This document shows, in pieces, positions 15,148-17,602 of a DNA stretch of 37,266 nt. The notes beneath the pieces are model-generated. The model made no database searches, was not told where the DNA came from, and saw only the letters and a program-made list of their open reading frames with translations. This DNA is from Candidatus Limivivens merdigallinarum (GTDB lineage Bacteria; Bacillota; Clostridia; Lachnospirales; Lachnospiraceae): positions 1 to 37,266 of the forward strand of contig DVFT01000099.1 of assembly GCA_018713105.1 (NCBI GenBank), given 5' to 3'. Each line of letters begins with the position of its first letter. The stretch's first letter is position 1. A program made the translations under genes and the position numbers.

Positions 15148-15184
15148 ATTTGCATGTTATGATTATTTAGGAGGATGTATATTT

Positions 15185-16045
15185 ATGAAGAAAAAAATCG
15201 TTGCAGTGATGATGGCAGCTATGATGGCAGCACTGCCGGTGAGCGCAATGGCTTCTGAGTCAGAGACTTCCGCGGAAACCGAGGCAGCAAGTGAAGCAGC
15301 AGAGACCGAGGCGGCAAGTGAAGAAGAGACCGAGGCGGCAGAGAAGGTTGACTTGACTGGCATGAAGATCGGCGTCCAGCTGGGAACCACCGGGGATCTG
15401 TCAGTCACTGAAGAGTATGGAGACGATGCCGTAGAGCGTTACAACAAGGGATTTGAGGCTGTGCAGGCTCTGCTTCAGGGCAAGATCGACGCAGTGGTGA
15501 TCGATGAGCTTCCGGCAGAGGAGTTCGTGGCATCTACGGAAGGGTTAAAAATCCTGGACGGTGCATACAGCCAGGAGGATTATGCAATTTGCTTTGCCAA
15601 GGACAACCAGGAACTGACCGACAAGGTGAATGAGGCAATCGCAGAGATCCGTGAGGAAGGAACCTTTGAGCAGATCGCAAATTCCTATGTGGGAGACAAT
15701 GCCGGAGAGAATTACTATGAGTCACCGGAAGATATCGACAGGTCAAACGGAGAGCTGGTTATGGCAACCAACGCTGAATTTCCGCCTTATGAATATTACG
15801 AGGGTGATGAAATCGTAGGGCTGGATGTGGATTTTGCACAGGCGATCGCAGACAAGCTGGGAATGGAGCTGACCATCGAGGATATGGCGTTCGATTCTAT
15901 CATCGCTGCAGTAACCAGTGGAAAAGCCGACATGGGTGTTGCTGGAATGACCGTTACAGAAGATCGTGCCACCCAGGTGAATTTCTCCGATACCTATTAC
16001 ACCTCCAAGCAGGTGATCATCATGAAGGATGACGCTGCGGAATAA
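15185..16045 (+). CDS. Polar amino-acid ABC transporter substrate-binding protein (SBP_bac_3 type) with permuted domain order
   Basis: Start ATG 15185 after GGAGG; signal peptide MKKKIVAVMMAAMMAALPVSAMA; contains GMKIGVQLGTTGDL and AVVIDELPAEEFVA followed C-terminally by GELVMATNAEFPPYEYYEGDEIVGLDVDFAQAIADKLGMELTIEDMAFDSIIAAVTSGKADMGVAGMTVTEDRATQVNFSDTYYTSKQVII. Confidence 0.9.
   Translation: MKKKIVAVMMAAMMAALPVSAMASESETSAETEAASEAAETEAASEEETEAAEKVDLTGMKIGVQLGTTGDLSVTEEYGDDAVERYNKGFEAVQALLQGKIDAVVIDELPAEEFVASTEGLKILDGAYSQEDYAICFAKDNQELTDKVNEAIAEIREEGTFEQIANSYVGDNAGENYYESPEDIDRSNGELVMATNAEFPPYEYYEGDEIVGLDVDFAQAIADKLGMELTIEDMAFDSIIAAVTSGKADMGVAGMTVTEDRATQVNFSDTYYTSKQVIIMKDDAAE
15275..15343 (+). 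repeat. Short in-gene direct repeats encoding an acidic Ala/Glu linker
   Basis: Units beginning GARACCGAGGCRGCAAGTGAAG...; encode ETEAASEAAETEAASEEETEAAE after the signal peptide. Confidence 0.75.
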
Positions 16046-16071
16046 AGACAGAAAAGCTTCGGACGAACCAG

Positions 16072-16104
16072 ACAGGGAGCCGCACGGATGCGGCCCCCTG
16101 TTTT
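16072..16104 (+). terminator. Terminator/attenuator hairpin between substrate-binding protein and permease
   Basis: ACAGGGAGCCGCA-CGGA-TGCGGCCCCCTGT (one mismatch) followed by TTT. Confidence 0.7.
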
Positions 16105-16176: not shown

Positions 16177-16866
16177 ATGGAGTCGTTAAAAGAACAGTTT
16201 TATATCAATTTTATTGAAGAGAACCGATGGCATTATCTCGTGGACGGTTTGAAGGTGACCCTCCAGGTGACCTTTCTTGCGGTGATCATCGGTATTGTGC
16301 TGGGGCTTCTGGTGGCGATCATACGTTCCACCTATATGAAGACCGGAAAATTAAAGGTGTTGAATTTCCTCTGCAATATTTATCTTACGGTGATCAGAGG
16401 AACACCGGTATTGGTACAGCTTTTGATTATCTATTTTGTCATCTTTGGTTCGGTCAACATCGATAAGGTGATCGTCGCTGTCCTGGCGTTTGGATTGAAT
16501 TCCGGCGCTTATGTAGCTGAAATCTTCCGCTCAGGAATTATGTCCATAGACAACGGACAGTTTGAAGCAGGGAGAAGCCTGGGATTTAGTTATGTACAGA
16601 CCATGTACCATATCATTATGCCCCAGGCGTTTAAAAACGTATTGCCGGCGCTTTGCAATGAGTTTATTGTGCTTTTGAAAGAAACATCCGTGGTAGGCTA
16701 TATCGCTCTGCAGGATCTGACCAAAGCCGGAGATATTATAAGGAGCCGTACTTACAGTGCATTTATGCCTTTGATTGCGGTGGCGATTATTTATCTGGTG
16801 ATGGTGATCGTATTTAACAAGCTGGTAGGAATTCTGGAAAGGAGGCTTCGCAGCAGTGACCACTAA
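16177..16866 (+). CDS. Amino-acid ABC transporter permease (HisM/GlnP type)
   Basis: 229 aa; [84 protein letters not shown]. Confidence 0.93.
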
Positions 16867-17602
16867 CGGAGAAGTCCTGATCAGGACAGAAAATTTAAAA
16901 AAAGTATTTGACGGAAGCCTTCATGCCTTAAATGGTGTGAGCCAAGAGATCCGAAAAGGGGAGGTCGTGGTGATTGTGGGGCCTTCCGGTTCGGGCAAAT
17001 CTACTTTCCTGCGTTCCCTGAACCTCTTGGAGATGCCCACCAGCGGGCACATTTATTTTGAAGGTGTAGATATCACCGATAAGAAGGTGGATATCAACAA
17101 GCACCGCCAAAGAATGGGAATGGTGTTCCAGCATTTCAACCTGTTTCCGCATATGACGATCCTGAAAAATATGACCATTGCACCTATGAAGCTTTTGAAA
17201 AAATCGAAGGAAGAGGCAGAAAGGCAGGCGATGGAGCTTCTTGAGAGGGTAGGGCTAAAGGAACGGGCGAACGCCTATCCAAGCCAGTTATCCGGCGGCC
17301 AAAAGCAGCGGATTGCCATCGTGCGTGCGCTGTGTATGGATCCTGAGGTGATGCTTTTTGATGAGCCGACTTCCGCCCTGGATCCGGAGATGGTCGGCGA
17401 GGTTCTGAATGTTATGAAAGAGTTGGCCAAAGAGGATATGACGATGGTGGTGGTTACCCATGAGATGGGCTTTGCCCGTGAGGTGGCAGACCGCGTGATC
17501 TTCATGGCGGAAGGACAGGTAGTAGAGGAGAATACTCCCAAAGAGTTTTTTGAGCACCCGAAGTCCGAGCGGCTTCAGGCATTCCTCGGAAAAGTGATAT
17601 AA
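16856..17602 (+). CDS. Amino-acid ABC transporter ATP-binding protein (GlnQ type)
   Basis: GTG start; [50 protein letters not shown]. Confidence 0.95.

Follow-up and report, generated by a model that had tools for sequence, protein, structure and literature searches.

The gene at positions 15185-16045 (+) of the window, the whole 37,266-nucleotide stretch of DNA analyzed here, very probably (at roughly 0.92) encodes a working type II substrate-binding protein (SBP) that is circularly permuted by nature and serves a polar amino-acid ABC importer with a single permease, judging from sequence comparisons and a structure model. Such a protein would fold into the usual Venus-flytrap and hold a polar or basic amino acid between its lobes by conserved residues of both halves. 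It would then close, dock on the presumably homodimeric permease, and deliver its substrate. The main mechanical change would be an N-terminal tether on lobe 2 instead of lobe 1, with the tether being a lipid anchor in most relatives and a non-lipidated leader plus acidic linker in the window species.

Anatomy and half order of the window protein

The gene is an intact open reading frame for a 286-aa protein of family PF00497 (SBP_bac_3). The Pfam profile matches it in two stretches (E 3.9e-37, 127 bits, cut-off 26.4), the best of which aligns residues 191-284 with profile positions 1-94; these are the two out-of-order partial matches for which the first-pass annotation had proposed to look. 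A phmmer comparison with solved type II SBPs aligned residues 188-282 with AncQR 9-104 and residues 55-170 with AncQR 113-232. By both profile and phmmer, the canonical N-to-C order is absent and the halves are reversed, B-A rather than A-B. Chance is excluded as the cause by the E-values together with 107 distinct homologs of the same order. Based on these alignments, the window protein is a circularly permuted relative and not an ordinary SBP_bac_3 member.

The protein starts with a signal peptide (residues 1-23; 15185-15253, +), assigned from the translation and the alignment of relatives and predicted to be of the SPase I type. This leader contains no Cys and thus no lipobox. It is followed by an acidic low-complexity linker (residues 24-54; 15254-15346, +), recognized from its sequence and from a pLDDT below 50 for residues 1-51. 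The canonical second half is now N-terminal (residues 55-170; 15347-15694, +) and contains the lobe-2 core, the second crossing strand, and the C-terminal helices, with pLDDT of about 86-98 from residue 61. A new linker (residues 171-188; 15695-15748, +; pLDDT 82-95), with a family consensus of approximately GDDTKGKTPYESPADVDRSNG, connects the old C terminus to the old N terminus. The canonical first half, now C-terminal (residues 189-286; 15749-16042, +), comprises the lobe-1 core and the first lobe-crossing strand. A whole-genome scan for PF00497 found only one other match, in a 646-aa frame on a different contig.

Within the genus, SBPs at this locus lack a lipobox and carry an acidic low-complexity stretch, which is N-terminal in the permuted window protein (15185-15346) and C-terminal in the canonical sister proteins (L045 and L085).

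Cut point, linker, and leader across the family

Canonical relatives read ...QVIIVKEDSDIAGPDDLEGKKIGVQLGT... around the cut, which falls between QVIIVKE and DSDIAGPDDLxGKKIGVQ. Permuted proteins finish at VK(E) and start with a remnant resembling I.S.DDL.GKKIGVQ; with one exception, those that are separate SBPs end 0 to 3 residues past the first-half match. By this alignment, the new termini are in the lobe-2 loop just past the first lobe-crossing strand. The earlier placement of the cut exactly at the hinge is thus corrected, the real cut being slightly beyond it.

The linker is 13 to 21 aa long in the 107 permuted proteins, most commonly 16, and conserves G174 (81%), Y178 (96%), and P181 (76%) among 106 of them. 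It varies more than either half, with a mean entropy of 1.99 bits versus 1.35 and 1.07. A simple pattern test found a lipobox Cys in 94 of the 107 proteins. The altered tethering suggested in the first-pass annotation accordingly holds for the majority of the relatives, predicted to be lipoproteins, but not for the window protein, which has no lipobox.

Predicted structure

We modeled the window protein with AlphaFold using a ten-sequence alignment of permuted proteins. In the model (pTM 0.75), 164 residues have a pLDDT of at least 90 and only residues 1-51 fall below 50. The order of secondary-structure elements is that of the AlphaFold model of a canonical relative (L041) rotated by half. 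The model confidence and this element order suggest a complete two-lobed fold with two crossing strands.

Foldseek, which compares structures in sequence order, gave the permuted model target TM scores of only about 0.4 to 0.5 near full length, and its matches included the tandem structure 6h30 and first-half matches. The canonical control scored 0.92 (target TM) against arginine-binding proteins. A sequential score of about 0.4 to 0.5 is what would be expected from a half-swap of a pseudo-symmetric fold and is not itself proof of one.

Operon, partners, and pocket

Downstream of the SBP gene lies a gene for a cognate ABC permease of the HEQRo family, GlnP/cystine-permease-like (16177-16866, +; PF00528, NCBIfam TIGR01726 above cut-off), followed by one for a GlnQ/TcyN-like cognate ATPase (16856-17602, +; PF00005, NCBIfam). 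This adjacency of HEQRo-type permease and cognate ATPase, the PAAT arrangement, is seen in the window and likewise in relatives, where the two genes follow nearly every permuted copy with enough flanking sequence (a few cut or weak loci were left unjudged). A role mainly as a sensor or other non-transport binding protein has a precedent in the type I permutant TpMglB-2, which has been discussed as a chemoreceptor (PMC4990184). The operon with permease and ATPase, and the direct fusion of 33 of the 107 permuted proteins to a permease, make that role highly improbable here and argue for transport.

A strong stem-loop separates the SBP and permease genes (16070-16103, +; region fold z -3.7). A terminator-like scan match falls at 16079-16094, where chance alone would give about one match over the region scanned. 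The stem-loop is terminator-like and is possibly a partial terminator giving an excess of SBP.

The closest solved relatives of the SBP are arginine and glutamine binders. At ligand-contact positions, R261 and D107 are invariant in 106 permuted proteins, F199 and F236 are conserved in at least 99%, and T256 in 94%. We take R261 to be the carboxylate-binding Arg, D107 the ammonium-binding Asp, and F199 and F236 the aromatic contacts, with roles as in GlnH and LAO.

Well-diverged pairs of permuted genes have dN/dS of about 0.01 to 0.07 (window versus L016, 0.062; L016 versus L017, 0.074; L019 versus L024, 0.011), dS being near saturation in the more distant pairs. Close Fournierella pairs give NG86 values of 0.17 to 0.33. 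By these ratios, the permuted form is conserved under purifying selection.

These data bear on whether the protein could be a decayed or partner-dependent fragment of a tandem SBP, with no single site or with half-swapping between chains. Its half order is indeed that of the middle of a tandem array, and the tandem substrate-binding domains (SBDs) of 6h30 align with it contiguously over the second half of SBD1 and the first half of SBD2. A fragment would sit poorly with purifying selection, pocket residues conserved from both halves, a confident monomer model, linker lengths within a narrow range, and the lack of a close canonical ortholog as partner. We therefore consider a fragment quite improbable and favor a self-contained permuted SBP.

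Distribution of the permuted form

Ten further permuted SBPs, one truncated by a contig end, came from a scan of our collection; among their sources are the isolate Hespellia stercorisuis DSM 15480, four Fournierella MAGs, and further Lachnospiraceae. Of the 397 Lachnospiraceae genomes sampled, 88 gave a match at E <= 1e-55 to a search profile built from ten permuted proteins; by architecture, 81 of these are C-N, 3 canonical, 1 a tandem array, 2 a different permutation, and 1 a split frame. The permuted SBP is thus verified in at least 81 of the 397 sampled genomes, about a fifth; the first few candidates per genome were scored, making all genome and protein counts lower bounds. Five genomes from other families of the same order also carry it. 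The phylum sample gave three matches only, all in Lachnospiraceae, and a plasmid search returned no record in which one place covered at least 80% of the query.

In all, at least 107 proteins of distinct sequence carry the permutation; they come from many genera, and 74 are separate SBPs and 33 fused to the permease. Could the reversed order be only apparent, created in assembly or binning by the collapse or mis-joining of tandem SBP genes? The window genome is a 231-contig draft, and relatives do carry tandem SBP arrays. However, the 107 proteins include one from an isolate and come from many genera and from several single-contig genomes (G266, G272, G382, G392, and G645), and they share an identical cut, a similar linker, and the operon context. 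Because many independent genomes carry the same order, we regard misassembly as excluded, its probability being close to nil. The central claim of the first-pass annotation, a natural circular permutant, is supported by the profile order, the confident model with elements rotated by a half turn, and the many independent homologs.

The 33 distinct fusions of permuted SBP and permease (CNP) are about 500 to 600 aa long (L130-L139, L182, L190, L194-L195, L198-L201, L204, L207-L208, L210-L211, L213-L221, and L224). In these direct fusions, the fusion point is the new C terminus in lobe 2. One further fusion (L230, G210 contig C50) is split over two frames by either a frameshift or a sequencing error. 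Permuted SBP operons are also present in the Fournierella MAGs (L025-L028; Oscillospiraceae, outside Lachnospirales), which suggests horizontal transfer.

Relation to known systems

The window protein shares homologous halves, pocket residues, and ABC partners with AncQR (4zv1), Thermotoga maritima ArgBP (6svf and 4prs), GlnH (1wdn), and ArtJ (2pvu). It differs from canonical SBP_bac_3 proteins in its reversed halves, its new linker, and its new termini in the lobe-2 loop.

TpMglB-2 (Tp0684, "Type Ic / Cluster Bc") is a natural permuted ABC binding protein that has kept ligand binding, and its homologs belong for the most part to treponemes and to Gram-positive bacteria, many being gut-dwelling (PMC4990184). 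Its glucose-binding fold is of type I and the permutation lies within the N-lobe, whereas the window protein has a type II amino-acid fold with exchanged halves and is homologous to PF00497, not to type I MglB. The halves of T. maritima ribose-binding protein have been permuted and crystallized in a study of the part that duplication, permutation, and domain swap play in the evolution of binding proteins; the constructs are laboratory-made (PMC9815098), in contrast to the natural window protein.

In the tandem SBD1-SBD2 of GlnPQ (6h30), the second half of SBD1, the linker, and the first half of SBD2 align with the permuted protein and so model the duplication route, but the tandem consists of two complete canonical domains and contains no permutant. 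Among the best 60 chains matching the permuted profile, only this tandem aligns contiguously in the permuted order. TpMglB-2 was the only natural permutant in the literature searched. The full-text papers searched, chiefly from outside the subscription journals, describe no type II amino-acid-binding protein that is permuted in nature. Permutation of an ABC binding protein is already known for type I, and the type II case is apparently unreported in that literature, though it may have been mentioned elsewhere.

It is uncommon for a natural permutant to have close canonical orthologs at its own locus, and such cases serve to test the limits that topology sets on fold and function. Canonical, half-swapped, differently cut, tandem, and permease-fused forms all exist in this one family and have kept their sequence similarity: each half of the window protein is 56 to 72% identical to its counterpart in canonical relatives of the same genus. 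The consequences of topology for opening and closing, affinity, tethering, and docking are therefore open to direct test. The natural linker and cut sites may serve biosensor engineering. The family is also an annotation hazard, as profile tools label permuted proteins ordinary SBPs.

Replacement of the canonical ortholog

A close canonical ortholog was found in 0 of 80 permuted genomes versus 29 of 80 others (Fisher p 1.7e-10, uncorrected for phylogeny), a contrast that uses one query (L041) at one threshold (E <= 1e-58) and is phylogenetically confounded. Its absence from the permuted genomes suggests that the permuted form probably displaced and replaced it.

Two genomes of the same genus have a canonical SBP at the equivalent locus, in the order SBP, permease, ATPase, Mur-ligase-family gene, TPR-like gene, with more genes downstream. 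Over the start and ribosome-binding region (15159-15193), the window gene and the canonical gene of the sister genome L085 share 91% identity. Given the shared locus and start region, the permuted body may have been swapped in behind the resident leader, displacing the canonical one.

Origin and other topologies

In quick trees, the window protein clusters with L016 and L017 (SH-aLRT 95 to 97), and permuted proteins form a few groups scattered among canonical ones. Multiple origins of the half-swap, as these trees would imply, are not upheld: a single permuted clade is unrejected (AU p 0.608), and the constrained tree is even likelier. The permutation is not mirrored in the permease and ATPase trees, on which it requires 14 to 15 changes, so either the SBP form has recombined with its partners or the resolution of the trees is poor. 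The half-swap probably arose once within Lachnospirales and spread vertically and horizontally afterwards.

The half-swap presumably began with tandem copies, duplicated or fused, whose outer halves were later lost. Duplications do happen in the family, as seen from NCNC and NCNCNC arrays and from a tandem permuted pair. The duplication-then-loss route put forward in the first-pass annotation thus stands as plausible rather than demonstrated. The arrays are single frames of about 780 to 973 aa that join canonical SBP domains to a permease, with three domains in L018:3900, L020:4881, L022:3876, and L202 and two in L021:3062. The permuted pair (L108, G114 contig C48) precedes one permease and ATPase, and its first copy is far more diverged. 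We rejected the NCNCNC proteins as the immediate source of the half-swap, since they fall within the close canonical SBPs and not beside permuted ones, and so show only that such an intermediate is feasible.

A different order, C2-N-C1, cut inside lobe 2, occurs in L228:1355-2155 (+; G032 contig C20) and L229 (G349 contig C260). It was found in two species of one genus only, with a permease downstream. All three pieces are closest to canonical proteins, and C2-N-C1 therefore looks like a second permutation, independent of the half-swap.

A broader proposal is that at least two natural type II permutations (B-A, and C2-N-C1 in genus g31) arose, and that the half-swap displaced the canonical form in about a fifth of Lachnospiraceae, because transport is altered when the tether or fusion sits on lobe 2 instead of lobe 1. 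We hold this adaptive, non-neutral account only tentatively and think it rather unlikely as a whole.

In one permuted SBP from another family of the order (L140, G400), the linker is without the usual PYESP-type motif, and the protein shows a weak grouping with canonical SBPs from outside Lachnospiraceae. A separate origin is possible for this protein.
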